Source of the DNA: Dechloromonas agitata is5
GTDB taxonomy: Bacteria; Pseudomonadota; Gammaproteobacteria; Burkholderiales; Rhodocyclaceae
Assembly: GCF_000519045.1 (NCBI RefSeq)
Contig: NZ_KI912532.1
Span: 1,302,001 to 1,366,000, forward strand
Reading direction: 5' to 3'
Length of the DNA stretch: 64,000 bases
Shown: positions 5,791 through 46,289 of the stretch, in pieces
How positions within the stretch are numbered: the stretch's first letter is position 1
Layout: every line of letters begins with the position of its first letter
Position numbers and translations under genes: made by a program
Notes under the pieces: generated by a model
The model's database searches: none
The model's input: the letters and a program-made list of their open reading frames with translations, nothing else
Told to the model about the DNA's origin: nothing

Positions 5791-5920
5791 CCCCCACTTT
5801 TCTGGCATGGGTTTTCTGAACCCGCCCAGCTATTAAGCATGCAGTCATAATCTTCTAATCGATCCCATGCAGTTCCGAGCAATGGTTGCTGGAACGCCTC
5901 ACTGGTAGGAGTAGCCAAGC

Positions 5921-6112: not shown

Positions 6113-6115
6113 GCG

Positions 6116-6274: not shown

Positions 6275-6275
6275 T

Positions 6276-9581: not shown

Positions 9582-9586
9582 CCATC

Positions 9587-10276: not shown

Positions 10277-11253
10277 TGTTGCGCAATCTGATTCAGGCCA
10301 CCCCTCATAGCGCCCGCCTGCGGAAGCGGCGCGGACGGCTGCTCAAGCCGGTCAAGCCCTCCCACAAGGTGGAGCTCTGGTACAAGCAGCAGCTGCTCGC
10401 CGTCGTGGCCAAGCTCCGCAAGGTCGCCCAGGAGGAACTGCTGCCAGAGCTTCGTCGGCTGGAGCCGTTGTATGCAAAAACCTCGGATGCCATCGCGAAA
10501 GATGGCATTACGGCCTTTTCGCCAATCGTCACCTCCAGGATCGCTGATCTGAAGCGCCGCTTCGGCGGTATCGAAGGAGTTGCACGGCGCTTAGCCGAGG
10601 CGGCGACGAGGCGCAGCCTGCAGACCGTGGATGGGGGCTTAACCGCCTCCATGAAGGCGTCCATCGAAATCGACATCAGCGGCTTTCTCACTCGCAGCGG
10701 GCCTATTCAGCAGGTATCCGAAGCGGCGAGGCTGGCCAATGTCAGGCTGATCAAGTCGATCCCCGAGCAATATTTCGAGAAGCTGGGCGATGCCGTCGGC
10801 AAGAACATGGAGCGCGGCATGCGCTTCGAGGACTTGGCCAAGGAGATCGAGCGCATCGGCGACGTGACCGAGAGCCGCGCCAAGCTGATCGCCCGGGACC
10901 AGACAAGCAAGATGAACGGCGCCTTCAATCAAATCCGGCAGCTGTCGCTGGGCATCGACAAGTACCAGTGGCAGACCTCCGGCGACGAGCGAGTGCGGGA
11001 CGACCACGCGGCCAATGACGGCGAAACGTTCCGATGGGACAAGGCGCCGGCGACCGGCCATCCTGGCGAGGCGGTGAATTGCCGATGCGTCGCAATACCG
11101 GTTCTGGATCTCGATGGTGACGTCGATGCGGGCTCGTCAGGGTGGTCAGTCGGCGGCATCGCAATGGCCGCCGCGGTGGCTGCGGGCATCGGCGCCATGT
11201 TTGACAGTTTCGCCGGTGATAGCCGCGCACCAGGTGCCGGGGGCGGGCGGTGA
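10276..11253 (+). CDS. MuF-like phage head morphogenesis protein
   Basis: A 325-residue protein with the SPP1 gp7/Mu gpF minor-head domain at about residues 190-280: LIARDQTSKMNGAFNQIRQL, then YQWQTSGDERVRDDH, and the closing GHPGEAVNCRCVA motif. Such proteins bind portal or head and may enter the host with DNA. The C-terminus has a Gly/Ala hydrophobic stretch (AMAAAVAAGIGAMF). The ATG overlaps the previous stop as TGATG; a GTG one codon earlier is possible. Portal and terminase genes, the usual neighbours, are absent. Confidence 0.8.
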   Translation: MLRNLIQATPHSARLRKRRGRLLKPVKPSHKVELWYKQQLLAVVAKLRKVAQEELLPELRRLEPLYAKTSDAIAKDGITAFSPIVTSRIADLKRRFGGIEGVARRLAEAATRRSLQTVDGGLTASMKASIEIDISGFLTRSGPIQQVSEAARLANVRLIKSIPEQYFEKLGDAVGKNMERGMRFEDLAKEIERIGDVTESRAKLIARDQTSKMNGAFNQIRQLSLGIDKYQWQTSGDERVRDDHAANDGETFRWDKAPATGHPGEAVNCRCVAIPVLDLDGDVDAGSSGWSVGGIAMAAAVAAGIGAMFDSFAGDSRAPGAGGGR

Positions 11254-11351
11254 GCAGCGGGAAAACGCCTGGAACGCAGGCTGGGGGCGGGAAGGCCGGG
11301 CCATACCGCCCCCTCCGGAACGAATAATGGAACACGAAAAGGACTGAAGAA

Positions 11352-12122
11352 ATGGAACACGAAAAAACACTGCAGGTATGCGACCGCATCGGGCTGACGG
11401 CCCGGACGGTGACGGAAGAGGGCTACCTGATTGTCCCGAGCAACATCGCCCGCACCGGCGTGCAGGAATACCGGGGCTACGAACTCGGCCTCGACGCCGA
11501 CGGCATGGACCCGATGAAGGTCATCCGGCTGCACCGGCCGCCCGAGGAGGTTTTCGACGCGGCCAGCATGGCCAGCTTCGAGGGGAAGCCGGTGACGCTC
11601 GGCCATCCCGATGAACCGGTCACCTCGACGAACTGGAGCGGCTTGGCTATGGGTGAAGTGATCGAGATTCGGCGCACCGGCGACATGCTGTCCGGCAAGG
11701 TCATCATCAAGGCCAGGAGCGCGATCGATGCCGTTGAGGCCGGCACCGTCGAGCTGTCGAATGGGTACAGCTTCAAGCTGGACATGACCGCCGGCCGGAC
11801 TCCCGACGGGGAGGAGTATGACGGCGTTCAGCGGCAGATCAGGGGCAACCATGTGGCCCTGGTGGAGGCAGCCCGTTGCGGCTCTGCATGCCGCCTCGGT
11901 GATGCCTTGCCCGTGGGCGCGCCGGTGCAGTTGCTGGGGCGCGATGCGTTCGCCGCCAGACAGGCGCAGGCCTGGCGCTGTGGGGTGGAAAATGCCGAGC
12001 CAGCGCCGGGGGCGGTGGTATCCGCCGGCGATAGAAGGCGACATGGCATGACGACAGGGCGGGCTGCCTTCATCGAACGCCAAGCCAATGGGTGGAATGG
12101 CCAGGAAGGGGGCGAGGCATGA
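11352..12122 (+). CDS. DUF2213 phage protein (possible prohead protease/scaffold)
   Basis: A 256-residue protein with the DUF2213 signature: IRLHRPPEEVFDAASMASFE, GKPVTLGHPDEPVTSTNW, ELSNGYSFKLD and RGNHVALVEAARCG. In tailed phages this family lies between the MuF and capsid genes and is thought to act in prohead maturation; the NHVALV segment resembles the histidine motif of prohead proteases. Here it follows MuF as usual, but no capsid gene follows. Positions 11326-11340 duplicate its start region (11351-11365), including ATGGAACACGAAAA. Confidence 0.75.
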   Translation: MEHEKTLQVCDRIGLTARTVTEEGYLIVPSNIARTGVQEYRGYELGLDADGMDPMKVIRLHRPPEEVFDAASMASFEGKPVTLGHPDEPVTSTNWSGLAMGEVIEIRRTGDMLSGKVIIKARSAIDAVEAGTVELSNGYSFKLDMTAGRTPDGEEYDGVQRQIRGNHVALVEAARCGSACRLGDALPVGAPVQLLGRDAFAARQAQAWRCGVENAEPAPGAVVSAGDRRRHGMTTGRAAFIERQANGWNGQEGGEA

Positions 12123-12715
12123 GCCCCAGAAAGCAATCGGACAGGACTGCCAAGGCGCCGACGTTGCCTCAGGGGCAGAAGGAGATCGACGTCGCCGGCA
12201 AAGACAATCAGAGTCGGGGTCGGAGAATGGCCGAGGCGGCCCTTTCGCCTTCGGTGGCCAATGCCTGCACGGTATCAGCTTTTGCCCAAGGCTCATTCGG
12301 TAACCAGGCCTTCACCGATGTGCTGGCCGCGGTGCTTGAAAAGGTCTCACGGGTCAATGCGGGCGACATGTCCTCAGTCGAGGCAACACTGACGGCGCAG
12401 GCCTGCGCATTGGACTCGATATTCAACGAGATGGCTAGGCGGGCAGCGCTGAACATGGGTGAGTATCTGGGCGCCACGGATACTTATCTTCGCCTCGCCT
12501 TCAAGGCACAAGCCCAGTGCCGAAGCACGCTGCAGACACTGGCCGAGATCAAGAATCCGCGGCCAGTAGCCTTTGTGAAGGCTCAGCAAGCGAACATTTC
12601 CCAAGGGCATCAGCAGGTCAATAACGGCCCTGGCGTCGCGCACGCGCGCGAGGAAACGCGGAACGAAGCAAACGAACTATTGGGGGTGGGAAATGGCGAA
12701 CGGATGGACGCCTGA
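12119..12715 (+). CDS. Conserved phage/island hypothetical protein
   Basis: A 198-residue protein starting in an ATGA overlap with the DUF2213 gene. The core is helical: ALSPSVANACTVSAFAQG, then ACALDSIFNEMARRAALNMG, YLRLAFKAQAQCRSTLQTLA, and a KAQQANISQGHQQVNNGP segment. This pattern resembles uncharacterised proteins of prophages and integrated elements; function unknown. The next small gene overlaps its 3' end by 23 bases. Confidence 0.65.
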   Translation: MSPRKQSDRTAKAPTLPQGQKEIDVAGKDNQSRGRRMAEAALSPSVANACTVSAFAQGSFGNQAFTDVLAAVLEKVSRVNAGDMSSVEATLTAQACALDSIFNEMARRAALNMGEYLGATDTYLRLAFKAQAQCRSTLQTLAEIKNPRPVAFVKAQQANISQGHQQVNNGPGVAHAREETRNEANELLGVGNGERMDA

Positions 12716-12911
12716 GCGGAGAGAGCGCCAAGCGGCGATGATCCGCTCTTGGAAACCCTGGAGCCGATCAACCGGGCCGCGGAGCGCACTCGGCAAGGCC
12801 GCCAGTTCGGCGAACGCCATCAAGCACGGATTCAGAAGTCGGGCGGCAGTGGAGGATGCGCGCTTGGTTCGAGATTTCCTGCGGAAGCTGGAGTTCCGCG
12901 GCGAAGTGTAG
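12693..12911 (+). CDS. Small basic hypothetical protein
   Basis: A 72-residue basic protein: RRERQAAMIRSWKPWSRSTG, then PRSALGKAASSANAIKHGFRSRAA. The STGPR-GK-...-N-KHG pattern is one I associate with small phage/island proteins encoded next to genes like the one upstream. It may bind nucleic acid, but that is inference from charge. It is the last gene of the rightward operon that begins near 5.9 kb. Confidence 0.6.
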   Translation: MANGWTPERRERQAAMIRSWKPWSRSTGPRSALGKAASSANAIKHGFRSRAAVEDARLVRDFLRKLEFRGEV

Positions 12912-13085
12912 TCGGCGCAGCCAAGGCGGCGGTGTGGCGTTGTTATGGGCCATAACCAGCATTCCGGCCGGATGACGTTGATTCGAATCAGCGTGCCGCG
13001 CGGGGGCGGGGAATCTTACCCGGCTGGTTATCCGGTCTCCCCGCTGGGAAGCCGCCCCAGCTCAATGCTAGGGGGCGGCAGCCGC
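12912..13085. other. Convergent non-coding gap with inverted repeats
   Basis: No gene. It holds a perfect 7-bp-arm palindrome GTTATGG-G-CCATAAC at 12940-12954 and a GC-rich hairpin, GCCGCCCC (13051-13058) pairing with GGGGCGGC (13072-13079). The hairpin lies between the ends of two converging operons but lacks a T tract, so intrinsic termination is uncertain. Confidence 0.5.
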
Positions 13086-13451
13086 TCAAAGGATGGTGCC
13101 GGCGACCATCATGTATGCGCCGACATAGCCGGCGATCCGGTCAATCGCGGCTTGGTGAAGCATCAAGCGCGTCTCCTCGTCGTAGGAGACCTTGGCCATT
13201 CTCCTCGGACCTGAATCGTCGATGGAGACGAGGGTGGCCTTGACTACGGTCGGGCTTGCACCCCCAACGCCATTCACCCCGAGCCGAACGATGCTACGGA
13301 AGCCCAGCACGGCGCCGGCCAGCGCCAGAAGCGAGCCCGACCGTTGAAACCACACCCAGGAGGCTGTTCCCCAGTCGAGATAGACGGAATACGCGGTCGC
13401 CGCCAGGGCACCGACGAGAAGGAGCGGGATGCTGGAAAGAAGCCCCCTCAT
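13086..13451 (-). CDS. Small membrane protein, unknown
   Basis: A 121-residue protein with three likely membrane segments: residues 5-24 (LSSIPLLLVGALAATAYSVY), about 32-52 (a hydrophobic Leu/Ala/Gly run) and 103-121 (IAGYVGAYMMVAGTIL). The loop between the second and third is cytosolic-looking and charged. It is coupled by an ATGA overlap to the upstream HTH gene, and the pair reads against the rest of the element. Superinfection exclusion or stress sensing are possible roles for such a gene in a prophage, but nothing in the sequence decides it. Confidence 0.6.
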   Translation of the reverse strand: MRGLLSSIPLLLVGALAATAYSVYLDWGTASWVWFQRSGSLLALAGAVLGFRSIVRLGVNGVGGASPTVVKATLVSIDDSGPRRMAKVSYDEETRLMLHQAAIDRIAGYVGAYMMVAGTIL

Positions 13452-13666
13452 TGCTGCTCCGCATCCTTCACGGCTGAGCGGTCAATCTCGAAACCTTCGC
13501 GCACCACCTGCTTGCAGCATGGGCAGATGGTCTTTCCCTTGGTCCGGCGCAGGGCCTGATACACGGCAGCATTGCCGACGCCGACGGCCGCGGCGGCCTC
13601 GTAGGCGGTCATGCCAGGGTTCTGTTGCATCAGGTCGAGGGCTTGCTGGGTCTTGCTCTTGGTCAT
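13448..13666 (-). CDS. Small HTH protein with CPCC motif
   Basis: A 72-residue protein. Residues 1-45 form a helix-turn-helix (QALDLMQQNPGMTAYEAAAA, then VGVGNAAVYQALRR), followed by ICPCCKQVVREGF, whose closely spaced cysteines could bind metal or respond to redox state. It is first in a two-gene leftward operon with a -10 box (13695-13700) just upstream. A regulator of the divergent promoters in 13667-13898 is plausible. Confidence 0.65.
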   Translation of the reverse strand: MTKSKTQQALDLMQQNPGMTAYEAAAAVGVGNAAVYQALRRTKGKTICPCCKQVVREGFEIDRSAVKDAEQQ

Positions 13667-13694
13667 GACAATCGCTCCGTTGGGTGGTGGCAGT

Positions 13695-13700
13695 ATTATA
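13695..13700 (-). promoter_or_regulatory. -10 box of the leftward HTH/membrane operon
   Basis: Perfect TATAAT on the minus strand, 29 bases before the HTH gene ATG and immediately preceded by TG. No convincing -35 at 17 bases, so it may depend on the TG or an activator. Confidence 0.5.
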
Positions 13701-13765
13701 CACTGCACATAAGTATTGCTATTGCTGCACAGATATGTAGAATAGTCGTCATCGCAGTATCGACA

Positions 13766-13844
13766 GCTCATTAAAAATTTGGAAGCAATCAAAGCCCGCA
13801 GCAATCGGCACCTGGCCGCAGCAGATGGACACAGGGGGCTTTGA
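13766..13844 (+). promoter_or_regulatory. boxA-like sequence plus long stem-loop in a leader
   Basis: GCTCATTAAAAATTTGGAAGC (from 13766) resembles the boxA antitermination element of rRNA leaders (GCTCTTTAACAATTT-type). It is followed by TCAAAGCCC (13789-13797), which pairs with GGGCTTTGA (13836-13844) around a 38-base loop. The unit sits upstream of the rightward genes at 13899-15013 and could bind NusB/NusE or act as an antiterminator leader. Confidence 0.4.
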
Positions 13845-13898
13845 CGGCGATCAGGCCGCCGCGAGTGCCTGGCAACTTGTCACTTCGGAGAATCAGCT

Positions 13899-14177
13899 AT
13901 GGCACAAATTCGGCCCATTGAAAGCAGCGGCCATCCCGTGAATGTCATGCCCAGGGTAGAGGGGGCGAGTATTTCCAGCAGGGAGGTCAGAGAGCTGCTG
14001 GCTCAGGTTGCAAACGCTTTCCCCGAGACGGCAAAGGTGATGGATACGGCGTCTCGGCTGATTGTTCACCTCGAAACACTGCGTCACGAGGCAACGCTGC
14101 CGCTCTCTCTGGGGCACTACGAGAATGTGCGGACCCTGCTTACCCAGAAAGCCATGGTGGAGGTTAACCATGGCTGA
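13899..14177 (+). CDS. Hypothetical protein
   Basis: A 92-residue soluble protein with no recognised domain. A GGAG ribosome site precedes the ATG. It is predicted to be mostly helical after residue 25 (SREVRELLAQVANAFPETAK, then MDTASRLIVHLETLRHEAT). It is first in a three-gene rightward unit, overlaps the next gene by 8 bases, and is preceded by the boxA-like leader. Confidence 0.55.
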   Translation: MAQIRPIESSGHPVNVMPRVEGASISSREVRELLAQVANAFPETAKVMDTASRLIVHLETLRHEATLPLSLGHYENVRTLLTQKAMVEVNHG

Positions 14178-14433
14178 GACGATCCAGCACTGGCAGGATT
14201 TCGAGCATCCGGTCACCATCCCGGCGGGGCAGGCCGGCGCCATTTACCGGGCGATGCGCAGTGTCAGGAACACACTGAACATGGTTGCCGACCACCATCT
14301 GCGCTCGAACTCCGGCGGTGTCCAGGCGCAGCGCCTTTCGTCGATCGAGGTTGAGGCCATGCTGTCCGGCGCTCTGGCGCTCTCCGACATGATGGAGGCG
14401 GTGTTCGAGGAACTGCATGCCGAGGCGCTCTAG
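14170..14433 (+). CDS. Hypothetical protein
   Basis: An 87-residue protein starting at the ATG at 14170, eight bases inside the previous gene. The sequence (MAETIQHWQDFEHPVTIP..., then a long helix with RAMRSVRNTLNMVADH and MLSGALALSDMMEAVFEELH) suggests a small helical bundle. No family recognised. The start is chosen from the overlap and because the reading frame upstream is basic and Trp/Arg-rich, as expected of an out-of-frame read of the preceding gene. Confidence 0.5.
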   Translation: MAETIQHWQDFEHPVTIPAGQAGAIYRAMRSVRNTLNMVADHHLRSNSGGVQAQRLSSIEVEAMLSGALALSDMMEAVFEELHAEAL

Positions 14434-14494
14434 CCAGAAATCGCGCCAAGCTTCGGTCGCACCCCGGAGGTTTTCCATATTCGATGAGGTAAAA

Positions 14495-15013
14495 ATGGAG
14501 CAAGCCAAGACCATCGGCCAGGACGATATGCTGGCCGTCGCATTTCAGGCTGTTCGCCTTTACGCCGAAACGCATCCGCGTCCGCTGCATGTCACTCTCG
14601 GCCAGGCTGCCGAAATGCTCGGCATTCCCATGGACTTGTTGATGAAGATGATGAGCAGCAAGAAGCTCAGGCTTAACGACTGCGGCTTGATACCGATTGG
14701 CGACATCGACCAAGTGCTTGCATCTCGAGCGCAGCATCAGGGCCAGATGCAGAAAGTGGTGGTGCAGAAGGCGACCCGTACTGCCGAGGAGGCGAGGCCA
14801 GCTAGTGGGCGATCCCGGAGCGATTCGCCTGATGGTACGCTGATGCGCTTGGTGGAGGTTGAAGAGGCTGTACGTGTGAGGACCACGACAATTTACAAGT
14901 GGATGAAGGAAGGGAAGTTTCCGAAGCAAATCAAGATGGGTTTTGTCTCGCTCTGGGTGAGGGCTGAGGTGGAAGCATGGATTCAGCAGCAAATTGCTGT
15001 CCGTGATGTGTAG
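14495..15013 (+). CDS. AlpA-like regulator with two DNA-binding domains
   Basis: A 172-residue protein starting at an ATG nine bases after GAGGT. The N-terminal half has an excisionase-like fold (HVTLGQAAEMLGIPMDLLMK, then LNDCGLIPIGDIDQVLASR). The C-terminal half is an AlpA-type helix-turn-helix: RLVEVEEAVRVRTTTIYKWM, then KEGKFPKQIKMGFVSLWVRA. AlpA proteins activate integrase or satellite genes and bind att regions. Two such modules joined by a Ser/Arg linker are unusual. It is the last element gene before attR, so a role in excision or activation is likely. Confidence 0.7.
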   Translation: MEQAKTIGQDDMLAVAFQAVRLYAETHPRPLHVTLGQAAEMLGIPMDLLMKMMSSKKLRLNDCGLIPIGDIDQVLASRAQHQGQMQKVVVQKATRTAEEARPASGRSRSDSPDGTLMRLVEVEEAVRVRTTTIYKWMKEGKFPKQIKMGFVSLWVRAEVEAWIQQQIAVRDV

Positions 15014-25765: not shown

Positions 25766-27067
25766 ATGGAAATCATTTCGGTCAGCGATCTGAAAATCGG
25801 CATGTTCGTCGCCGAACCGGATTGTCCGTGGACGGCATTTCCCTTCATCTTTCAGGGATTCGTCGTCACTTCGTCCGAACAGATCGCGCTCTTCCGGCAG
25901 AAATGCCGTTTCGTATCGATCGACCGCTCGCGTTCCCTGAATGAGCACTATGCAGCCCCGCGCCATGAACGCGATCTGCCCTTGCACGCCGCACCGATAA
26001 CAGGCCAGCGTATCGAGGAAAGTTCCGGCAAGGGGGAGCTCTTCTCCGCCAACGAGAAAGAAAGGCGAAATCTGCGCCGGCGCCGCTTTCTCGATTTCCT
26101 GCATTCGCAGGACGACAATGAGCAGGCCTGCCAGCTCTCTCGAGAACTGGCTGACGTCGAACCCCGCTATGATCAACTGACTACGGCCTTGCAGCATGCC
26201 TTCGAGACACTTTCCGAGGGCCGGGATGTTGATTTGCTCACTGTCCGCGAGGGGCTGCGTGACATTTCTGCCAGCCTGCAACGCAATCCGGATGCGGTGA
26301 TGTGGCTGTTGCGCCTGAAGCAGCGCGATGAATACAGTTTCGATCATGCCATGGATGTTGCGGTCAACATGTTGCTGGTCGGAACGCATATCGGCTGGCG
26401 TGACATGCGCCTGCTCGATCTCGGCATGACCGGCCTGTTGCAGGATATTGGCAAGATCGAACTGCCGCTCGAACTCCTGCGGAAGAAGACTGACCTGACC
26501 GAAGCGGAGCGTCGGCTGGTACATTCGCATGTGGCCAGTTCCATGGAAATCCTGATGGCACATTCCACGTTGTCGAATGATGTTGTATTGGCCGTGGCGC
26601 GCCACCATGAGAGATGGGACGGGAGTGGCTACCCGCGTGGCCTGAAGTTCGAGCAGATCGGCATGGCGGCCGAGATTGCCGGGATCGCCGATTCTTTCTG
26701 TGCCATGCAGAAGGACAAGCCCTATCGCAGCGCCCTCGGGCATCAGGAGGCGCTGGAGGAGTTGCACAACCTGCGCGGCAAGAAGTTCAACCCCACCCTG
26801 ATGGAGCAGTTCGTTCAGTGCGTCGGCCTCTACCCAATCGGGACGCTGGTTGAACTGAGCAATGGGGAGGTTGGTGTGGTCATCCTGCAGAACCGGGTGC
26901 AGCGCTCCCGGCCGCGGGTCGTCGTGATGCTGGATGCCGACAAGCAGCAGGTCAGCAGTTACCGCGTCATCGATTTGCGCGAACCGGCCCACGCCCGCTT
27001 GCGGGTTGCCAAGGCTCTGCCCTACAACGCTTACGGTCTGGCGGCGAATGACTACTACCTTGGATAG
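25766..27067 (+). CDS. HD-GYP domain protein with altered metal site
   Basis: A 433-residue protein. An N-terminal DUF3391-like domain (MEIISVSDLKIGMFVAEPDC) is followed by an HD-GYP domain at about 180-345. GYP is intact (RHHERWDGSGYPRGL), but the HD pair reads GLLQDIGK (His to Gln), and the later metal-site Asp of the usual DVYDAL motif is Cys (IADSFCAM). HD-GYP enzymes hydrolyse c-di-GMP using two or three metals; loss of two ligands makes activity doubtful, so it may bind c-di-GMP or work as a partner. It overlaps the next, EAL-domain, gene by 20 bases. Confidence 0.85.
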   Translation: MEIISVSDLKIGMFVAEPDCPWTAFPFIFQGFVVTSSEQIALFRQKCRFVSIDRSRSLNEHYAAPRHERDLPLHAAPITGQRIEESSGKGELFSANEKERRNLRRRRFLDFLHSQDDNEQACQLSRELADVEPRYDQLTTALQHAFETLSEGRDVDLLTVREGLRDISASLQRNPDAVMWLLRLKQRDEYSFDHAMDVAVNMLLVGTHIGWRDMRLLDLGMTGLLQDIGKIELPLELLRKKTDLTEAERRLVHSHVASSMEILMAHSTLSNDVVLAVARHHERWDGSGYPRGLKFEQIGMAAEIAGIADSFCAMQKDKPYRSALGHQEALEELHNLRGKKFNPTLMEQFVQCVGLYPIGTLVELSNGEVGVVILQNRVQRSRPRVVVMLDADKQQVSSYRVIDLREPAHARLRVAKALPYNAYGLAANDYYLG

Positions 27068-28733
27068 CACCGGTTTCATCGACTATGCCGCATTCGGCGT
27101 CAGTGAGGACGACCTGCCGTCGCTACGCGCCCTGGATGCCGTCTGGCGCACCGCGGTGGCCAAGGCGGCGGCGCCCTACGGTACGACGCATTTGCTGGAC
27201 GAGTTCGTGGCGCGGACGGGCGAGTTGCCGCTGCGGATCAATGAAAATCTCTGGCAACGCAGCTGGATGCACGCCTGGCACAAGCTGAGCGGGAGGGGGT
27301 TTTCCCTCGCCGACATGTTCGGTTTTTTTAATCGAGCGACGGCCATCGCGGAGGCCGACTTGTTCGGTGGCCAGCCCCAGATCGGGCGCCTTCAGCTTGA
27401 ACTGTTCGGTATCCTGCGGCGCAGCGTGGTAGCGGCCATCAGTTGTGCCATCGAACTGGGTGAGGAGGCGCGCGATACCGAAGCGGGCTTGCCGGGCGAA
27501 TGGATGGCGATGCGTACCTTGCGGGAAATGGGGGAAGGTGGCCAGCGGGTTGCCGTTCTCTCCGTCTCCATGGTCAATCGGCAGGCTTTGTCGAACCTGA
27601 CGGCCAGCGAATTGCAGAGCCTGCCAGGGCTTCTGTCCGGGCAGTTGTCGAGTCTCTTGCGCCCTCAGGACAAGGCCTTCACCGGACACGAGGGGGAATG
27701 GTTGCTGCTCCTCGCCGACGTGACCTCGATGGCCCAGCCGGCGCTGGCGGCATCGCAGATTCATCGGGTTTTCGACCATCCGGTGCGCTTGCTGGGCGGA
27801 CGGGGCATCTTGCTCGATGCGTCGATCGGGATCGCCATGTTCCCCGAACACGGCAACGAGGCCGACGAGGTCATCCAGGCAGCCCGTCTGGCGCGGGCCA
27901 GCCTGCAGGTGAGCCGGGAGTCCTTTGCCATCTTCGATGATTCGATGCGACAGCGTTGGCAGCATCGGCAACAGTTGTCGGAGGAGTTGCGAGAGGCGCT
28001 GCGCAAGGATCGCCTGATGCTGTACCTGCAACCCCAGGTCAACAGCGACTCCCGTACCTGCTTTGGTGCGGAACTGCTGCTGCGTTGGCGACGCGACAAC
28101 GGTGACTGGGTGCCGCCGCCGCTCATCGTGGAATTGATCGAGGAATATGGTTGGCGGGCTCAGTTCACCAGTTGGCTGGTTCGCGCAGCCATGCACCAGG
28201 CAGCCGCGCTCGATACGGAAGGCATCGGCATCAGCCTTTCGCTGAATCTGACGGCGGGTGATCTGCTGGATACCGACCTGCCGGAAATCGTCGGGCAATG
28301 CCTGGAATCCTGGCGCCTGCCGGCCGAGCGCTTTACTTTGGAACTGACCGAAACGGCCCTGATGCGGGATCGCGAACGTGGCCTGGAGGTGATGACCCGT
28401 CTGCGTGCCATGGGGGTTCGCCTGGCGCTGGACGATTTTGGTACCGGTTTCTCCTCGCTGAGCTATCTGGCGACCTTACCGCTCAATGAAATCAAGATCG
28501 ACCGCTCGTTTGTCGTCGGCATGTTCTCCTCGGTGGATAACCTGCGGATCGTCCGCACCATCATCGATCTGACGCACGACCTCGGCATGAAATCGCTGGC
28601 CGAAGGTGTCGAAGACATCATGCAGCGCGACCAGCTCTTCGCGCTGGGCTGTACGCAGATTCAAGGCTACCTGTACGCCAAGCCGATGCCGATGGCGGAA
28701 TTCATCGCCTGGTACCGCGCCTTCCCGACTTGA
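27048..28733 (+). CDS. EAL-domain c-di-GMP phosphodiesterase with degenerate GGDEF
   Basis: A 561-residue cytoplasmic protein. An unknown N-terminal part (1-170) precedes a degenerate GGDEF domain in which the signature is replaced by HEGEW. The EAL domain (about 310-555) is complete: GAELLLRW with the catalytic Glu, NLTAGDLL, ELTETAL, DDFGTGFSSLSYL, IKIDRSFV, EGVED and IQGYLYAKPM. It should hydrolyse c-di-GMP to pGpG. The start ATG lies 20 bases inside the HD-GYP gene, suggesting coupled synthesis of the two phosphodiesterase-family proteins. Confidence 0.9.
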   Translation: MTTTLDSTGFIDYAAFGVSEDDLPSLRALDAVWRTAVAKAAAPYGTTHLLDEFVARTGELPLRINENLWQRSWMHAWHKLSGRGFSLADMFGFFNRATAIAEADLFGGQPQIGRLQLELFGILRRSVVAAISCAIELGEEARDTEAGLPGEWMAMRTLREMGEGGQRVAVLSVSMVNRQALSNLTASELQSLPGLLSGQLSSLLRPQDKAFTGHEGEWLLLLADVTSMAQPALAASQIHRVFDHPVRLLGGRGILLDASIGIAMFPEHGNEADEVIQAARLARASLQVSRESFAIFDDSMRQRWQHRQQLSEELREALRKDRLMLYLQPQVNSDSRTCFGAELLLRWRRDNGDWVPPPLIVELIEEYGWRAQFTSWLVRAAMHQAAALDTEGIGISLSLNLTAGDLLDTDLPEIVGQCLESWRLPAERFTLELTETALMRDRERGLEVMTRLRAMGVRLALDDFGTGFSSLSYLATLPLNEIKIDRSFVVGMFSSVDNLRIVRTIIDLTHDLGMKSLAEGVEDIMQRDQLFALGCTQIQGYLYAKPMPMAEFIAWYRAFPT

Positions 28734-28790: not shown

Positions 28791-29192
28791 ATGTTCGATC
28801 CAGTCATCAGCAGCCTGCCTGCCTTCGCCGGCTATTTCGCCACGGCGCTCGCCTTGCTGGCGGTATTCGCCCTGCTCTACGTCTTTGTCACGCCCTATAA
28901 CGAGCTGGCCCTGATCCGCGAGGGCAACACGGCGGCGGCCGTCAGCCTGGGCGGCGCGGTGGTCGGCTATGCGCTGCCGATCGCGGTGTCGGTGGCGGTC
29001 AGCCACAACATCATGGCGATGATCGGCTGGGGCGTCGTCGCCTGTCTGGTCCAGCTGATGGTCTATGTCATCGCCCGCCTCGCCCTGCCCCAGATCAACC
29101 GTGCCATCCCGCAGGGCAAGGTCGCTTCCGGCGTTTTCCTCGCTTCGCTTTCCCTCGGCATCGGCATCCTCAACGCCGGCTGCATCGCCTGA
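28791..29192 (+). CDS. DUF350 membrane protein
   Basis: A 133-residue inner-membrane protein with four predicted helices (about 13-35, 48-70, 77-99, 110-130). The loop NELALIREGNTAAAVSLGGA and the repeat-like second half are typical of DUF350 (YjfL-like), two copies of a two-helix unit. Function unknown. A GGGAG ribosome site is present. It is first of four closely spaced genes (gaps 18, 10 and -1), followed by SPFH, DUF4178 and a small membrane protein, families that co-occur in membrane-stress loci. Confidence 0.85.
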   Translation: MFDPVISSLPAFAGYFATALALLAVFALLYVFVTPYNELALIREGNTAAAVSLGGAVVGYALPIAVSVAVSHNIMAMIGWGVVACLVQLMVYVIARLALPQINRAIPQGKVASGVFLASLSLGIGILNAGCIA

Positions 29193-29210
29193 TCACTCAA
29201 GGAGACTTTC

Positions 29211-30245
29211 ATGGCTCTGATGGACTTCATCAAGAAACAGTTTATCGACATCCTGCAATGGACCGAGGATGGCGACGGCACGCTGGCCTGGCGATTCCCG
29301 ATGGCGGAAATGGAGATCCAGAACGGCGCCAGCCTGACCGTGCGCGAGTCGCAGGTGGCGATGTTCGTCAACGAAGGCAAGGTGGCCGACGTCTTCCAGC
29401 CGGGCATGTACAAGCTGACGACGCAGACCCTGCCGGTGCTGACCTACCTGAAGAACTGGGACAAGCTGTTCGAATCCCCGTTCAAGAGCGATGTTTACTT
29501 CTTCTCGACCCGTACCCAGCTCGATCAGAAGTGGGGCACGCCGAACCCGATCACCATCCGCGACAAGGAATTCGGCATTGTCCGGCTGCGCGCCTTCGGC
29601 ATCTATGCCTACCACCTGGTCGAACCCAAGGCCTTCTACCAGAAGATTTCCGGTACTCGCGACCGTTACGATCGCGAGGAACTGGCCGGCCAGTTGCGCA
29701 ACACCCTGGTTGCCGGCATGACCGACCTGTTTGCCGAGTCGGGTGTGCCCTTCATCGACATGGCGGCCAACCAGGAAGAATTCGGTCGGGCGATGTTCGC
29801 CAAGATGCAGCCGGTGTTCGCCGAATACGGCCTGGCGCTGGATTCGCTGGTCGTCCAGAACGTGTCGCTGCCCGAGGAGTTGCAGAAGATTCTTGACCAG
29901 AAGATCGGCATGAACATGATTGGCGACATGCAGCGCTACACGCAGTACCAGGTCGCCAACAGCATCCCCGATGCGGCGAAGAACGAGGGCGGCATGGCGG
30001 CGATGGGGGTTGGCCTGGGCGCCGGCGTCGGTTTCGGCCAGGTGGTCGGGCAGGCGATGGCCGCGGCCCTGCCGCAGGGCGGGGCGGCTCCGGCGGCAAC
30101 CGCTCCGGCAGCGACGGCTGGCAGCCTTTCGCCCGATGAGGTCGTTGCCACGCTGGAAAAACTGCACGGTCTGGTCGAGAAAGGCATCCTGAGCCAGGCC
30201 GAGTTCGATGCCAAGAAGGCGGAACTGCTCAAGAAGCTGACCTGA
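29211..30245 (+). CDS. SPFH-domain (YdjI-like) protein with SHOCT tail
   Basis: A 344-residue protein. The SPFH/band-7-like domain covers about 25-225 (ASLTVRESQVAMFVNEGKVA, PGMYKLTTQTLPVLTYLKNW, FGIVRLRAFGIYAYHL). After a Gly/Ala-rich linker (MGVGLGAGVGFGQVVGQAMA) a SHOCT motif ends the protein (LEKLHGLVEKGILSQAEFDA). YdjI-type proteins are cytoplasmic or membrane-associated scaffolds related to flotillins and act in membrane-stress responses with zinc-ribbon partners. An AAGGAGA ribosome site is present. It probably assembles at the membrane with the DUF350 and DUF4178 products. Confidence 0.87.
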   Translation: MALMDFIKKQFIDILQWTEDGDGTLAWRFPMAEMEIQNGASLTVRESQVAMFVNEGKVADVFQPGMYKLTTQTLPVLTYLKNWDKLFESPFKSDVYFFSTRTQLDQKWGTPNPITIRDKEFGIVRLRAFGIYAYHLVEPKAFYQKISGTRDRYDREELAGQLRNTLVAGMTDLFAESGVPFIDMAANQEEFGRAMFAKMQPVFAEYGLALDSLVVQNVSLPEELQKILDQKIGMNMIGDMQRYTQYQVANSIPDAAKNEGGMAAMGVGLGAGVGFGQVVGQAMAAALPQGGAAPAATAPAATAGSLSPDEVVATLEKLHGLVEKGILSQAEFDAKKAELLKKLT

Positions 30246-30255
30246 TCGGCCCCGC

Positions 30256-32184
30256 GTGGCGCTCACTGCCTCCTGCCCGTCCTGCGGCGCGCCCGTTGAG
30301 TTCAAATCCAACTCGTCGGTCTTCGCCGTCTGTGCGTATTGTCAGAGTACGCTTGTCCGTCACGACCAGAATCTGGAGGACATCGGCAAGATGGCGCCCC
30401 TGGTCGAGGACCGCTCGCCGCTCCAGCTGGGGGCCGAGGGTAGCTACGAGGGCGTCCATTTCGCGCTGATCGGGCGCATCCAGATCAAGTACAGTCAGGG
30501 CATCTGGAACGAGTGGCACCTCTTGTTCGACGACATGCGTACGGGCTGGCTGTCGGAGGCGGGCGGTGAGTATGTGCTCACCTTCATGCGCCAGGTGAAC
30601 GAGCCGTTGCCGGCCTTTTCGGGACTCAGGATAGGCCAGCGTCTGCAGGTGGCCAGCCAGGTATGGACCGTCAGCAATCTCGAAAACGCGGGGTGCGTCG
30701 CCGGCGAGGGCGAGCTGCCGTTCAAGGTCGGCGCCGGCTATCCGGTGGCGGCGGCTGACCTGCGCAACGAGCGCCATTTCGCCACCCTCGACTACTCCGA
30801 AACGCCGCCCCTGCTCTTTGTTGGCGAAGCGGTCGATTTCCGGTCGCTACGCCTGAACAACCTGCGCGAGGGCCGGGCGGAGCGTGAGGTCAGCGTCCAG
30901 GCGCAGGTCTTCCGCTGCCCGTCCTGCGCTTCGCCGATGCAGGCCCGCTCACCGGACATCCTGGCCGTTGCCTGTGCCAGCTGCGGCACGGTGGTCGATG
31001 CGGCCGACCCCAGCTACAAGATCCTGTCGCGCGTCATGCGCCGCCGCGACGAAATCCGCAAGCTCCGCCTGCCATTGGGCAGCAAGGGAAACCTGGATGG
31101 CAAGCCGGTCGAAGTCATCGGCCATCTGGTGCGCCGGGCGCGGATCGAGGGCATCGCCTACCTGTGGTCGGAATACCTGCTCGCCGCCGAGCACGGCACC
31201 TACCGCTGGTTGACCGAGTACAACGGTCACTGGAACGTGGTCGATGTGCTGTCGCGGCCGCCAACGAGCAACAGCGTCATCGAGGTGGACAGCCTGCGTT
31301 ACGACGGCGAGCTGTTCAAGCATTTCTCGACCACCCCGCTCGCCGAGGTGGTGCAGATCGATGGCGAATTCACCTGGCGGGTCAAGTACGGCGAGACCAA
31401 CCGCGTCGTCGATTACGTCGCACCGCCCCGCATGCTGTCCAAGGAGACCAGCAACAACGACCTGAACTGGTCGCTCGGCCGCTATGTTGCCCCGGACGTC
31501 ATTGCCGAGGCGTTCGGCCAGGCCGGCAAACTGCCTGCAGCCATTGGCGTCTATGCCAACCAGCCCAACCCGTGGTCTGCCGCCGTGCGCCGGAGTTGGG
31601 GCTTGTTCGCCAAGCTGGCACTGGTGGCCCTGCTGGTGCAGGTGTTCTTTTTGTTCATTTCAAGCGAAAAGCTGCTGCTGCGCCAGGATTTCAGTTTCGA
31701 ACCGGGTTTTGCCAGTGAGGTGCAAAGCCGTGAATTCACGCTGGCCGCCCAGCAGCGCAAGATCGTCGTGCGCCAGGCGACCTCGCTCGACAACAACTGG
31801 CTCGGCGTCGATCTGCTGCTGGTCAACAAGAGCACCGGCCAGGCCTGGCCGGCGGCGCGCGAGATTTCCTACTACTGGGGTTACGACGATGGCCGGTGGA
31901 CGGAAGGCAGCCGCGACGACGAGGTGGTGTTCCGCAACATCCCGGCGGGTACCTACTACCTGACGCTTGACCCGGAAATGTCGCCGAACAAGGGTGTCGC
32001 AGTGCGTGATCGTCTGGAGGTGGTTACGCCGCGCACCGGGTGGTCCAATTTCGTGATCGTGCTGATCTTCCTGGCGGCCTTCCCGGTCTTCGCCTCGCTG
32101 CGCAAATCGGCCTTCGAGACGCAGCGCTGGGCGGAAAGCGATCATGCACCGGTGAGCAGCGACGATTCCGACGGAGACGACTGA
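30256..32184 (+). CDS. DUF4178 protein with two zinc ribbons and membrane helices
   Basis: A 642-residue protein with a GTG start. First zinc ribbon CPSCGAP...CAYCQ (residues 8-30), then a DUF4178 beta-domain (residues 55-200); second ribbon CPSCASP...CASCG (about 223-250), then a second DUF4178 (about 275-420). A membrane helix near 455-475 (LFAKLALVALLVQVFFLFIS), a periplasmic beta-domain and a second helix near 598-615 follow. The duplicated ribbon-plus-DUF4178 unit is cytoplasmic. It follows the SPFH gene by 10 bases and overlaps the next gene by one. DUF4178 function is unknown; context suggests membrane stress. Confidence 0.85.
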   Translation: MALTASCPSCGAPVEFKSNSSVFAVCAYCQSTLVRHDQNLEDIGKMAPLVEDRSPLQLGAEGSYEGVHFALIGRIQIKYSQGIWNEWHLLFDDMRTGWLSEAGGEYVLTFMRQVNEPLPAFSGLRIGQRLQVASQVWTVSNLENAGCVAGEGELPFKVGAGYPVAAADLRNERHFATLDYSETPPLLFVGEAVDFRSLRLNNLREGRAEREVSVQAQVFRCPSCASPMQARSPDILAVACASCGTVVDAADPSYKILSRVMRRRDEIRKLRLPLGSKGNLDGKPVEVIGHLVRRARIEGIAYLWSEYLLAAEHGTYRWLTEYNGHWNVVDVLSRPPTSNSVIEVDSLRYDGELFKHFSTTPLAEVVQIDGEFTWRVKYGETNRVVDYVAPPRMLSKETSNNDLNWSLGRYVAPDVIAEAFGQAGKLPAAIGVYANQPNPWSAAVRRSWGLFAKLALVALLVQVFFLFISSEKLLLRQDFSFEPGFASEVQSREFTLAAQQRKIVVRQATSLDNNWLGVDLLLVNKSTGQAWPAAREISYYWGYDDGRWTEGSRDDEVVFRNIPAGTYYLTLDPEMSPNKGVAVRDRLEVVTPRTGWSNFVIVLIFLAAFPVFASLRKSAFETQRWAESDHAPVSSDDSDGDD

Positions 32185-32327
32185 TGTTCGACAAGTTCAA
32201 CCTGGCCGCTGGCATCTGTGCCCTGTTGCTCTTCGCCTTCGTCCAGCAACAGGGCTGGAACCTGTTCGAGAACGAAGCCAGTTCCAGCCATGGGGGGTCG
32301 GGCAGCAGTCGCAGTTATCATAAATAA
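32184..32327 (+). CDS. Small single-pass membrane protein
   Basis: A 47-residue protein beginning MFDKFNLAAGICALLLFAFV, with one membrane helix and a polar Ser/Gly/His-rich tail (SSSHGGSGSSRSYHK). Its ATG overlaps the DUF4178 stop as TGATG, so it is translationally coupled and the last gene of the DUF350 operon. No known family. Confidence 0.6.
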   Translation: MFDKFNLAAGICALLLFAFVQQQGWNLFENEASSSHGGSGSSRSYHK

Positions 32328-32360: not shown

Positions 32361-34403
32361 ATGCGAATGGCCTTTTTCCTGTTGTCATGCTTGGCTGTTG
32401 CCCCGGCCTGGGCGCTGGAGCATGTCGTGTTGCAACTGAACTGGAAGCACCAGTTCCAGTTTGCCGGCTATTACGCCGCAATCGAGCAGGGCTATTTCCG
32501 CGAGGCAGGCTTCGACGTCAGCTTGCGCGAGTTGCCCAGTGGCGGGAATCCGGTTGAGATCGTGCTCAACGGGGAGGCGGATTTTGGCGTCGCCGCGTCG
32601 GAGCTGGCCTGGCACCGGGTACAGGGCAAGCCGGTCGTCGCGCTGGCGGCCATCGTCCAGCATTCGCCGCTGATCCTGCTGGTCAACCGGCGCAAGATCG
32701 GCGATATCGATAGCCTGGAGGGCAGCCGCATCATGCTGGCGCCGCATGAAACCGAGCTGTTCGCCTATCTCCGGCGCGAGGAGATCCGGCAATTCACCAC
32801 CGTGCCGCACACCTTCGACACCCGTGACCTGATCGAAGGGCGGGTTGAGGCGATGTCGGGGTACGCCACGGACGAGCCCTACCTGCTGCGCAAGGTCGGC
32901 TTTCCTTACCAGATCTTCAATCCGGCGGCGGTGGGCATCAATTTCTATGGCGACACACTGTTCACCTCGGAGCAGCGCGTCAAGGCCTCGCCGGATCGTG
33001 TCCGGGCCTTTCGGCAGGCTGTCGTGCGGGGCTGGGCCTATGCCCTGGCTAATCCGGAGGCAATCACCGATCTCATCCTGGTCCGTTACTCGCGGCGCCA
33101 TGAACGTGACCACCTGCTGTTCGAGGCCAACGAACTGAAGCGCCTGATGCAGCCCGACCTGGTCGAGATCGGCCAGCAGTCAGCCAGCCGCTGGCAGCAA
33201 ATTGCCGAAACCTACGCCGAATTGGGCATGCTGCCGCCCCGGCCGGCCATCGATGGCCTGATCTTCGAGGCGGAGGCCAGCAAGCTGCCGGCCTGGATCG
33301 GCTTCGCGCTGGCCGGCGGCGGCCTGTTGATCCTGCTGGTCGGCGGCGCGGCGCTCTATTTTGCCCGTCTGAACCATCGCCTGCAGCGTGAGGTCGCGTC
33401 GCGGGAAGTATTCGAATGCGCCCTGCGGACCAGCGAGGAGCGCTACCGGCAACTGGCCGAGTTCAGCAAGGACGTGATCTGGACGCTGGACCTGAAGAGC
33501 ATGCGTTTCACCTACGTCAGCCCGGCCATCGAGAAGGTACGCGGTCTGACTGTCGAGGAGGCGACTGCCCAGAGCGTGGCCGATGCAATGACGCCAGCCT
33601 CCTATGCCAGGGTGCAGGCGATCATGGACGACCATTTGCACCGCATCGCGGCCGGCGACCTGAGCGCCCTGTCGGCGACCTGCGAGATCGAACAGCCGCA
33701 CAAGGATGGCAGCCTCATCCATGCCGAAGTGGTCGGCAGTTTCCTGCTCGACGCGGCTGGCCGGCCCTATGCGCTGCTCGGCATTTCCCGCGATGTTTCG
33801 GAGCGTCGGCGGGCCGAGAACGAATTGCGCGCGGCCAACGAGCAACTGCGCCGGCAACTGGTCGAGATCGAGCAACTGCAGGTCGCACTCAAGGAGCAGA
33901 CCATCCGGGACAGCCTGACCGGCTGCTTCAACCGCCGCTATCTCGACGAAACCCTGGAGCGCGAATTGTCGCGCTCGCGCCGCGAGGGCTATCCGCTGGC
34001 ACTGGTCATCCTCGACCTCGATTTCTTCAAGCGGATCAACGACACCTACGGCCATCTGGCCGGCGACCGCGCCCTGGTCGTGCTGGCTGAAACCCTGCGC
34101 GCCGATATCCGTCAGGAAGACGTACTGTGCCGCTACGGCGGTGAGGAATTCGTCGTCCTGATGCCGCGCATGCCGCTCGACAAGGCCGTCGAACGGGCCG
34201 AAGGCTGGCGCCGCCAGATCGCCGACATTGGCATCGACTTCGGCAATTTCAGGGTCACCTATACTGCCTCGGCCGGTGTGGCGGCCTACCCCGATCACGG
34301 CAAGACCCCCGATGAACTGACCCACGCGGCCGACACGGCGCTTTACATCGCCAAGAACATCGGGCGTAACCGGGTCGTCGAATACACGCCGGAAATGGGC
34401 TGA
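32361..34403 (+). CDS. Periplasmic NMT1/THI5-like sensor, PAS, GGDEF diguanylate cyclase
   Basis: A 680-residue membrane sensor. Signal peptide (MRMAFFLLSCLAVAPAWA), an NMT1/SsuA-type solute-binding domain (LQLNWKHQFQFAGYYAAIEQ, then GYFREAGFDV), a membrane helix at about 311-335, a PAS domain (SEERYRQLAEFSKDVIWTLD), a short coiled coil and a GGDEF domain with active site RYGGEEF and inhibitory I-site RQED five residues before it. It should make c-di-GMP in response to a small periplasmic ligand, perhaps thiamine-precursor-like. CATAAT lies six bases before the ATG. Confidence 0.88.
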   Translation: MRMAFFLLSCLAVAPAWALEHVVLQLNWKHQFQFAGYYAAIEQGYFREAGFDVSLRELPSGGNPVEIVLNGEADFGVAASELAWHRVQGKPVVALAAIVQHSPLILLVNRRKIGDIDSLEGSRIMLAPHETELFAYLRREEIRQFTTVPHTFDTRDLIEGRVEAMSGYATDEPYLLRKVGFPYQIFNPAAVGINFYGDTLFTSEQRVKASPDRVRAFRQAVVRGWAYALANPEAITDLILVRYSRRHERDHLLFEANELKRLMQPDLVEIGQQSASRWQQIAETYAELGMLPPRPAIDGLIFEAEASKLPAWIGFALAGGGLLILLVGGAALYFARLNHRLQREVASREVFECALRTSEERYRQLAEFSKDVIWTLDLKSMRFTYVSPAIEKVRGLTVEEATAQSVADAMTPASYARVQAIMDDHLHRIAAGDLSALSATCEIEQPHKDGSLIHAEVVGSFLLDAAGRPYALLGISRDVSERRRAENELRAANEQLRRQLVEIEQLQVALKEQTIRDSLTGCFNRRYLDETLERELSRSRREGYPLALVILDLDFFKRINDTYGHLAGDRALVVLAETLRADIRQEDVLCRYGGEEFVVLMPRMPLDKAVERAEGWRRQIADIGIDFGNFRVTYTASAGVAAYPDHGKTPDELTHAADTALYIAKNIGRNRVVEYTPEMG

Positions 34404-44789: not shown

Positions 44790-46289
44790 ATGCGTCATGC
44801 CCTCCTCTTTTCCGTCTTTGTCATCGCCTCCTGCGGCCTGGCTTACGAATTGATCGCCGGGGCGTTGTCGTCCTACCTGCTGGGCGATTCGGTGATGCAG
44901 TTCTCGACGGTGATCGGCACCTACCTGTTCGCGATGGGCGCCGGGTCGTGGTTGTCGAAATACATCACGCGCGACCTGATTGGTCGTTTTATCCAGATCG
45001 AACTGATGGTTGGTCTGCTCGGTGGCTTTTCGGCAGTCGGCCTGTTCATGGTTTTTATCTGGTTGTCGGCGCCATTCAAGCTGGTGCTCTATCTGGTGGT
45101 GTTCGGGGTTGGCGTGCTGGTCGGCCTGGAGATCCCGCTCGTCATGCGCATCCTGAAGCGCGAACTGGCCTTCAAGGATCTGGTGTCGCAAGTGCTCACG
45201 TTCGACTATCTCGGCGCACTGGCCGTCTCCATTCTCTTCCCGCTGATCCTGGCGCCGTATCTTGGCATGGTGCGCACCGGCCTGTTGTTCGGCCTGCTGA
45301 ATGTGGCGGTCGCGCTGTGGGCGGTACATTTGTTCCGCGAACAACTGCCGGCCCGGCGCAGCCTGTTGCTGCAAAGCTGGACCGTCTTCGGGGTGCTCAC
45401 CGCTGGTTTTGCCGGAGCCGGACAACTGACGAGCCTGGCCGAAACGCATCTCTATGCGGACGAGATCGTTCATGCCGAAAGCACACCTTACCAGCGCATT
45501 GTCGTCACCCGCTGGCGTGACGATCTGCGCCTGTTCCTCAACGGCAACCTGCAGTTTTCATCGCACGACGAATACCGCTACCACGAAGCCCTGGTGCACC
45601 CTGGCCTGGCTGCGCTACCGGGCGCCCAGCGTGTGCTGGTGCTGGGCGGCGGCGATGGACTGGCGGTCCGGGAAATCCTCAAGTACCCACAGGTTGAGTC
45701 GATCACGCTGGTCGATCTTGATCCGGCGATGACGAATCTGTTCTCGACGGCGCCGGCCCTGGTCGCGTTGAACCAGGGGGCGCTCGGCTCGGAACGGGTC
45801 AAGGTGGTCAATGCCGATGCGCTGCAATGGCTGGAGGAAAGCCGGGACTATTTCGATTTCATCGTCATCGACTTTCCCGATCCCTCCAACTTTGCACTGG
45901 GCAAGTTGTACAGCGCGGCGTTCTACCGTCTGATCGAAAAGCGGCTATCGGCCAACGGCCTGCTCGTCGTGCAATCGACCTCGCCGCTCTACGCCCGGCA
46001 ATCGTTCTGGTGCGTCGTGACGACGCTGGAGAGTGTCGGCTTCAAGACGGCGCCCTACCATGCGCAGGTGCCGTCCTTCGGCGAATGGGGCTACATCATC
46101 GCCGGCCGGCAGGCGTTCACGCCGGCCACCATCGATGCGACGAAAACCCGCTACCTGACGCCGGAAACGCTTCCCGGGCTGTTCGCCTTCCCGGCCGACA
46201 TGGGACGCATACCGGCCGAGATCAATCAGCTCAACAACCAGGTGCTGGTGCGCTATTTCGAAAGCGAATGGCGCAAGGTCATTCGCTAG
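44790..46289 (+). CDS. Membrane-anchored polyamine aminopropyltransferase (spermidine synthase-like)
   Basis: A 499-residue protein. The N-terminal 200 residues hold about six to seven membrane helices (with IGTYLFAMGAGSWLSKYITR between). The C-terminal domain (about 225-490) is a Rossmann spermidine-synthase fold: RLFLNGNLQFSSHDEYRYHE, VLVLGGGDGLAVREILKYP, LVDLDPAM, VIDFPDPSNFALGKLYS and FGEWGYIIAG. It should transfer aminopropyl groups from decarboxylated AdoMet, or act on a related substrate at the membrane. Members often sit with DUF350/DUF4178 genes elsewhere (from memory); here those lie 13 kb away. Confidence 0.88.
   Translation: MRHALLFSVFVIASCGLAYELIAGALSSYLLGDSVMQFSTVIGTYLFAMGAGSWLSKYITRDLIGRFIQIELMVGLLGGFSAVGLFMVFIWLSAPFKLVLYLVVFGVGVLVGLEIPLVMRILKRELAFKDLVSQVLTFDYLGALAVSILFPLILAPYLGMVRTGLLFGLLNVAVALWAVHLFREQLPARRSLLLQSWTVFGVLTAGFAGAGQLTSLAETHLYADEIVHAESTPYQRIVVTRWRDDLRLFLNGNLQFSSHDEYRYHEALVHPGLAALPGAQRVLVLGGGDGLAVREILKYPQVESITLVDLDPAMTNLFSTAPALVALNQGALGSERVKVVNADALQWLEESRDYFDFIVIDFPDPSNFALGKLYSAAFYRLIEKRLSANGLLVVQSTSPLYARQSFWCVVTTLESVGFKTAPYHAQVPSFGEWGYIIAGRQAFTPATIDATKTRYLTPETLPGLFAFPADMGRIPAEINQLNNQVLVRYFESEWRKVIR

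Follow-up and report, generated by a model that had tools for sequence, protein, structure and literature searches.

A four-gene membrane operon of Dechloromonas agitata as the likely scaffold half of a dispersed seven-gene aminopropyl-transfer system

What is the role of a tight operon of membrane-associated proteins that includes no enzyme? The question is raised by positions 28791 to 32327 of a 64,000-nucleotide stretch of the Dechloromonas agitata is5 genome (contig NZ_KI912532.1, positions 1,302,001 to 1,366,000; here called the window), in which four genes encode a DUF350 protein, an SPFH-domain protein, a zinc-ribbon/DUF4178 protein, and a 47-residue peptide. A first-pass annotation had taken them for a membrane-domain complex without an enzyme, perhaps serving envelope stress or phage defense. 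The absence of an enzyme holds for the four open reading frames (ORFs), but it does not hold for the system to which they appear to belong. We consider it likely that the four genes make up one half, the scaffold, of a seven-gene aminopropyl-transfer system, with the enzymes, a seven-transmembrane (7TM) aminopropyltransferase, a flavin adenine dinucleotide (FAD) amine oxidase, and the S-adenosylmethionine (SAM) decarboxylase SpeD, encoded elsewhere in the chromosome.

Enzyme genes beside related operons and in the window genome

DUF4178 occurred in 48 genomes of a 300-genome sample of the order and in 26 of an overlapping 398-genome sample of the phylum. Sixty-six stretches were fetched around DUF4178 matches, and 63 loci remained once those from the genus of the window (L034 to L036) had been dropped; an unrelated SPFH match (L035_1) and the SpeD of L046 were left out of profile training. 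Within about 9 kb, these loci contained DUF350 in 59 cases, the 7TM enzyme in 56, DUF4178 by profile in 55 (the profile misses several short forms), the peptide in 42, the FAD amine oxidase in 41, SpeD in 39, SPFH in 37, and PspA with CesT in 4. Pfam assigned the representatives to Spermine_synth (E value of 7e-36), Amino_oxidase (5e-08), AdoMet_dc (1e-25), PspA_IM30 (7e-44), and CesT_Tir_1 (1e-52). The first-pass annotation had proposed a neighborhood survey for polyamine genes and had held that homologous operons with an enzymatic function would speak against it; all three enzyme genes do indeed occur beside homologous operons, and an aminopropyltransferase is near most of them. The four PspA-type loci usually have the order SpeD, CesT, PspA, DUF4178, DUF350, two small membrane proteins, and 7TM enzyme, with a different position for SpeD in L084. 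Genome G061 has, outside its main operon, a second and shorter DUF4178 frame close to a SpeD-like gene (L046).

From a scan of genome contigs, the 80 best of the 404 confirmed loci were taken further (the named loci). Dechloromonas, Azonexus, Propionivibrio, Sulfuritalea, Accumulibacter, and further Rhodocyclales are among their titles, and many are named to class only. Fourteen of the 80 carried all seven genes, in the order DUF350-SPFH-DUF4178-peptide-7TM enzyme-oxidase-SpeD and in some cases with intervening genes, 12 carried the four genes and the 7TM enzyme, 36 had only the four scaffold genes inside the stretch, and the remaining 18 were partial or rearranged. Some of these stretches are short contigs, so that absences there carry little weight. 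The 7TM enzyme directly follows the peptide in six of the 12 (L254, L255, L257, L258, L259, and L273), apparently an intermediate arrangement, and is farther off in the other six. Thirteen named loci lacking the 7TM enzyme in the stretch, 4 close to the window and 9 more distant, were followed up, and the enzyme was present elsewhere in all 13 genomes, at full length in 11, in two frames in 1, and as a short fragment in 1. In an Accumulibacter genome (G730, contig C58:111353-112853), the 7TM enzyme was seen in two overlapping frames, reflecting a frameshift or a sequencing error.

The same enzymes are scattered in the window genome. The 7TM enzyme gene (44790 to 46289, forward strand; profile match with an E value of 8e-247) is inside the window, 12.5 kb downstream of the operon. 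The FAD amine oxidase gene (62787 to 64000, forward strand; profile match, 5e-219) runs 376 bases beyond the window end and occupies G000:C1:1364787-1366376 on the genome, with the profile match at G000:C1:1364793-1366373. A profile search located SpeD, a putative SAM decarboxylase by Pfam, at G000:C1:857488-857841, approximately 473 kb upstream of the operon. PspA_IM30 was not found in the complete genome, with the control positive in 9 of 14, and CesT gave no profile match in the 18-kb stretch L034, to which that search was limited. Across the genus, the distance from operon to 7TM enzyme had a median of 19.7 kb in the 29 genomes with both on one contig (range, 0.9 kb to megabases), and the 7TM enzyme and oxidase were 17.8 to 20.4 kb apart in 20 of the 25 genomes in which they share a contig. 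These distances suggest that the split is old.

Joint retention and decay in the genus

Sixty genomes of the genus were sampled and scored for four separate loci, the operon (by DUF4178), the 7TM enzyme, the oxidase, and SpeD; a good-quality subset comprised 41 genomes with completeness of 90% or more and contamination of 5% or less. In G692, a fragment of the 7TM enzyme, 80 residues long and at a contig edge, was scored as absent, and so were the SpeD pieces of G724, the latter choice lowering the SpeD count from 48 to 47. The operon was present in 42 genomes, the 7TM enzyme in 43, the oxidase in 41, and SpeD in 47. Forty genomes had all four loci, 11 had none, 5 had SpeD only, and just 4 were mixed, each in its own way: G702 (83% complete), G706 (91% complete with 6% contamination), G717 (81% complete), and G724. 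In the good-quality subset, 29 genomes had all four, 7 had none, 4 had SpeD only, and 1 (G724) held a relic. Fisher tests of the operon against the 7TM enzyme, uncorrected for descent, gave P values of 1.7e-11 (60 genomes) and 3.8e-9 (41 genomes). On an rpoB tree of the 48 genomes with rpoB, the distributions required 8 changes for the operon, 8 for the 7TM enzyme, 7 for the oxidase, and 6 for SpeD; once four incomplete genomes had been removed and G724 counted as lacking the loci, the numbers were 6, 6, 6, and 5, respectively. Despite their chromosomal separation, the seven genes are thus kept jointly in the genus, which defines a set of partners.

The relic in G724 consists of DUF350, SPFH, and DUF4178 fragments between genes that also flank the operon region of the window, together with pieces of the oxidase and a SpeD in two frames. 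A recognizable 7TM enzyme was not found in that genome, the sole match (4.6e-5) covering part of the Rossmann region.

In the four good-quality genomes with SpeD only (G682, G691, G711, and G718), a soluble SpeE adjoins SpeD, which therefore presumably serves ordinary polyamine synthesis. The 7TM enzyme profile found soluble spermidine synthase genes in four relatives and did not find a soluble SpeE in the window genome. Loci L163, L164, and L165 (G682, G718, and G711) show an ordinary, adjacent SpeD-SpeE pair in genomes that lack the system, which would fit mutual exclusion of the two routes. One contig of G702 (L150) presents a run of SPFH, a DUF4178-peptide fusion, a half-size DUF350, and the 7TM enzyme that is unlike the other genomes examined in the genus and perhaps reflects contamination or transfer.

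Membrane enzyme, scaffold proteins, and peptide

Sequence comparison of the 7TM enzyme with the PDB matched aminopropyltransferases. Its AlphaFold2 model (mean predicted local distance difference test [pLDDT] score, 84.8) shows seven long helices followed by a SpeE fold, and the best Foldseek match was the Thermus thermophilus aminopropyltransferase 1uir_B (3e-16). Seven residues, D289, D361, D364, Q255, Y264, E266, and Q395, were invariant in 37 of 37 homologues. The counterparts of D361 and D364 in 7xif and 6bq2 are likewise Asp, and the glycine motif reads GGGDG compared with GGGEG in those two structures, which have Glu at the position of D289. By its modeled fold, glycine motif, and catalytic Asp positions, the enzyme belongs with the SpeE-fold proteins. 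Loops 0, 2, 4, and 6 were the richer in Lys and Arg in every homologue of two sets (37 of 37 and 50 of 50), as the positive-inside rule expects of a cytosolic N terminus. Of the helices, the seventh is hydrophobic (best score, 1.84 on average; at least 1.6 in 42 of 50), and helix 2 is the weakest (7 of 50). An N terminus inside and seven spans would place the catalytic domain in the periplasm, and the outer face of the inner membrane is thus the predicted site of chemistry. The oxidase begins with a twin-Arg/lipobox N terminus; of 35 homologues, 28 had RR near the start and 20 had a lipobox, counts in which some starts may be miscalled. This N terminus fits a predicted export.

In the system that we propose, SpeD would make decarboxylated SAM in the cytosol, and all four operon products, with the SPFH protein as scaffold, would hold the 7TM enzyme in a membrane patch. 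The enzyme would aminopropylate an amine located in the envelope, one that is probably not free putrescine, and the amine oxidase, predicted to be exported, would work on the product. To our knowledge, no acceptor is known for this orphan bacterial aminopropyltransferase, and the identity of any particular acceptor is much less certain than the system itself. Gene content and order, the separation of the loci, their joint retention, the joint decay in one genome, the fusions described below, the enzyme fold, and the conserved catalytic positions are observed here; the physical complex, its topology, its acceptor, and its physiological role are inferred, and an envelope-stress role of the operon is possible.

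The four scaffold genes are all on the forward strand, with gaps of 18, 10, and -1 bases between successive ORFs, in agreement with the first-pass annotation. The first (28791 to 29192) encodes a 133-residue DUF350 (YjfL-family) protein (PF03994, 5.4e-35) for which a hydropathy scan gives four transmembrane segments, as had been claimed. The second (29211 to 30245) encodes 344 residues with an SPFH/Band_7_1 domain (PF13421, 1.9e-78) and a C-terminal SHOCT (PF09851, 7e-07). No segment passed the hydropathy threshold in this protein (a hairpin anchor could escape the scan), and it includes a Gly/Ala-rich stretch. Since no transmembrane segment is predicted, the earlier label "flotillin-like scaffold" is loose. 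It matched no solved structure by sequence at an E value of 0.1.

The third gene (30256 to 32184) encodes 642 residues, with PF13785 (7.2e-27) matching in two stretches. As had been described, it is a double-zinc-ribbon/DUF4178 membrane protein, with two CxxC...CxxC ribbons, two DUF4178 domains, a transmembrane segment (residues 450 to 468), a beta-sandwich domain, a second transmembrane segment (597 to 615), and an acidic tail. C26, C29, C221, C224, C240, and C243 were invariant across 43 sequences, and C7 and C10 were kept in at least 90% of them. The GTG start is supported by the CPSC of the first zinc ribbon, which stands immediately behind it and recurs in most homologues. By sequence, four zinc-ribbon-type proteins and one marginal match were found among solved structures. 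The structure model (pLDDT, 84.0) reached a TM-score of 0.2 or less to either chain among the top 30 Foldseek matches, and its VIA-align match (best Z score, 9.9; root mean square deviation, 4.3; 117 aligned) covers mainly residues 469 to 594. Since that overlap is a common beta-sandwich, we assign the protein no function from it.

The fourth gene (32184 to 32327) encodes the 47-residue peptide, with one transmembrane segment and a Gly/Ser tail ending in His-Lys (HK). It matched no Pfam or NCBIfam family. All 80 named loci nevertheless had a homologue, and each of these ended in HK, through the codon pairs CACAAG (47), CACAAA (21), CATAAA (8), and CATAAG (4). A profile of the peptide matched at 136 of 163 scanned loci, some places having been fetched twice. 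The match reached the C terminus in 127 of these, all 127 ending in Lys and 124 in HK, and the remaining 9 ORFs, with matches short of the C terminus, likewise had Lys at the end; the profile was trained on Lys-ending tails, and copies with other tails could escape it. A matching Gly/Ser tail with HK closes 11 DUF4178 ORFs, which we read as fusions of the peptide to DUF4178 in some lineages. An HK terminus occurred in 39 of 1,122 predicted proteins of at least 40 residues from the 66 stretches, and 38 of the 39 were the peptide or its fusions. The counterparts in the PspA-type loci end in GGK (4 of 4). To judge from these homologues, the peptide is a genuine gene, as the first-pass annotation had supposed. 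Together with the conserved gene order and the parallel with SPFH and PspA in Bacillus subtilis, the fusions support that annotation's membrane-domain complex, but not its enzyme-free version.

With Lys at the C terminus in every copy found, the unannotated peptide is a candidate acceptor. The 7TM enzyme might put an aminopropyl group on the terminal Lys, whose side chain is a butylamine resembling half of putrescine, and the exported amine oxidase might then oxidize the new amine. A protein would thereby be aminopropylated, in loose analogy to hypusine formation, with the modified peptide anchored in the membrane and kept in place by the SPFH scaffold. Three observations speak for it: every homologue found ends in Lys, the fusions and PspA-type counterparts included; HK is encoded by all four codon pairs; and the predicted N-in topology would put the catalytic domain on the same side as the peptide tail. 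However, the Lys might serve for docking, the catalytic domain is periplasmic by prediction, and the profile is biased toward Lys tails; we regard this particular acceptor as improbable.

Competing explanations and known systems

Several observations weigh against the proposed system. The 7TM enzyme was absent from the stretch at 7 of the 63 loci outside the genus; contig ends account for two and a second paralogue for one, leaving four without such a cause, and that survey was anchored on DUF4178 matches. In the window genome, the seven genes are not one transcription unit. The Fisher tests ignore descent, joint decay was seen in one genome, and SpeD also occurs without the rest in 5 of 60 genomes. 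A coarser hydropathy count gave six spans in 34 of 49 homologues of the 7TM enzyme, seven in 11, and five in 4, the window protein having five; an even number would make the catalytic domain cytosolic, and its periplasmic placement is accordingly a prediction. Periplasmic catalysis would also require decarboxylated SAM to cross the membrane.

One alternative is that the 7TM enzyme makes free spermidine or a similar polyamine at the membrane, for export or for shielding the envelope, as reported for surface spermidine in Pseudomonas aeruginosa (PMC4295883). The SpeE fold with its conserved catalytic positions would suit such an enzyme, as would the finding of SpeD beside a soluble SpeE in 4 of the 41 good-quality genomes, where the system is absent; yet a simple synthase would not require so many conserved partners. 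In addition, Li et al. (2019; Biochem J 476:2579) reportedly described clusters of a SAM decarboxylase, a fusion of a major facilitator superfamily domain with spermidine synthase (MFS-SpdSyn), and DUF350, in which the fusion is said not to replace spermidine synthase, spermidine being absent, and a spermidine-independent role was proposed. Those clusters would have SpeD, a membrane-fused aminopropyltransferase, and DUF350 in common with the system described here. We therefore think free polyamine synthesis possible but unlikely.

A second alternative keeps the operon as an enzyme-independent membrane-stress complex, an SPFH lipid-domain scaffold with its partners, to which polyamine-type enzymes are loosely associated. 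The four ORFs include no enzyme, and in Bacillus subtilis the SPFH protein YdjI, with YdjG and YdjH, recruits PspA to the membrane (PMC8581546). That system combines a soluble SPFH protein with membrane partners, an arrangement that the operon here may share; one of these partners, YdjG, carries two zinc ribbons (PMC11237479). It includes PspA and the TPM-domain protein YdjH, however, and the four proteins here include neither; Pfam found no TPM domain in a search confined to those four. The Band_7_1 profile was also positive in the B. subtilis control, a match not tied to YdjI. All-or-none retention with three separate enzyme loci, joint decay in G724, and a genome without PspA argue against the membrane-stress explanation, which we hold to be doubtful; in its strictly enzyme-free form it was rejected, since both the neighborhoods and the genus search tie the operon to the 7TM enzyme. 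Antiphage defense, a suggestion of the first-pass annotation only, was rejected as highly improbable, because the best PADLOC 2023 match had an E value of 0.012 with none at 0.1 for the other three proteins, the neighbors are core chromosomal housekeeping genes, the DUF4178 protein matched 9 of 72,556 plasmid records, and the SPFH protein matched 5 of 50,697 phage records at 24 to 27% identity (best, 4e-31), none covering 80%.

The gene association on which the aminopropyl-transfer system builds has partly been published. Ravi et al. (2024; PMC11237479), the only paper in the literature searched to treat DUF4178 by name, described PspA-CesT operons with a 7TM spermine synthase, DUF350, and DUF4178, and PspA-free band-7/SHOCT variants with an AdoMet decarboxylase and a polyamine oxidase. 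Their group 2 (PspA-CesT/Tir-7TM spermine synthase) has DUF350, DUF4178, the 7TM enzyme, here in trans, and a membrane setting in common with our system. It is a single six-to-seven-gene operon, whereas here four genes stand together and the enzymes are at three other places; in addition, SPFH-SHOCT replaces CesT/Tir-PspA, the set extends to the FAD oxidase and SpeD, and DUF4178 is doubled and joined to zinc ribbons. The SPFH protein thus stands at the place of PspA in related operons and may fill the slot of CesT/Tir-PspA. The band-7/SHOCT variant has the Band-7 and SHOCT fusion, SpeD, amine oxidase, and DUF350 in common, SpeD and the oxidase being in trans here. That variant, however, falls in an ATP-grasp (glutathionylspermidine synthetase-like) group, in contrast to the 7TM aminopropyltransferase here. 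It has two transmembrane segments between band-7 and SHOCT; no such insert was predicted for the SPFH protein of the window, which contains the Gly/Ala-rich stretch. As far as our searches reach, the split with its joint retention and decay, the validation of the peptide, and the predicted periplasmic catalytic domain are new; no description of split, peptide, or topology was found in the literature searched, most subscription papers and supplements lying outside it. Papers on SpeD relatives with other substrates (PMC10407285 and PMC11999265) held nothing on this system in their accessible parts. PA4774/SpeE2 of P. aeruginosa was rejected as a homologue, being a protein of 349 residues for which the accessible part of PMC11107197 mentions no membrane part, and the apparent "DUF350" matches in PMC12730115 are DUF3509.

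DUF350 itself comes in several sizes. The 133-residue form is two tandem copies of a 70-residue unit with two transmembrane segments, and the 70-residue profile matches full-size forms (mostly 128 to 135 residues) twice, often weakly. Forms of 70, about 133, and about 280 residues were observed (28791 to 29192; L053 and L083), the last being about twice the length of the 133-residue form.

The operon is flanked on the same strand by HD-GYP and EAL genes (25766 to 28733) and an NMT1-PAS-GGDEF gene (32361 to 34403). These cyclic di-GMP neighbors were rejected as operon members; the upstream HD-GYP/EAL pair is missing in L035 and hence probably lies outside the system. Genes resembling an integrated element were also observed at 3640 to 15013; judged by eye, their products include an integrase-like protein and a helicase similar to DnaB.

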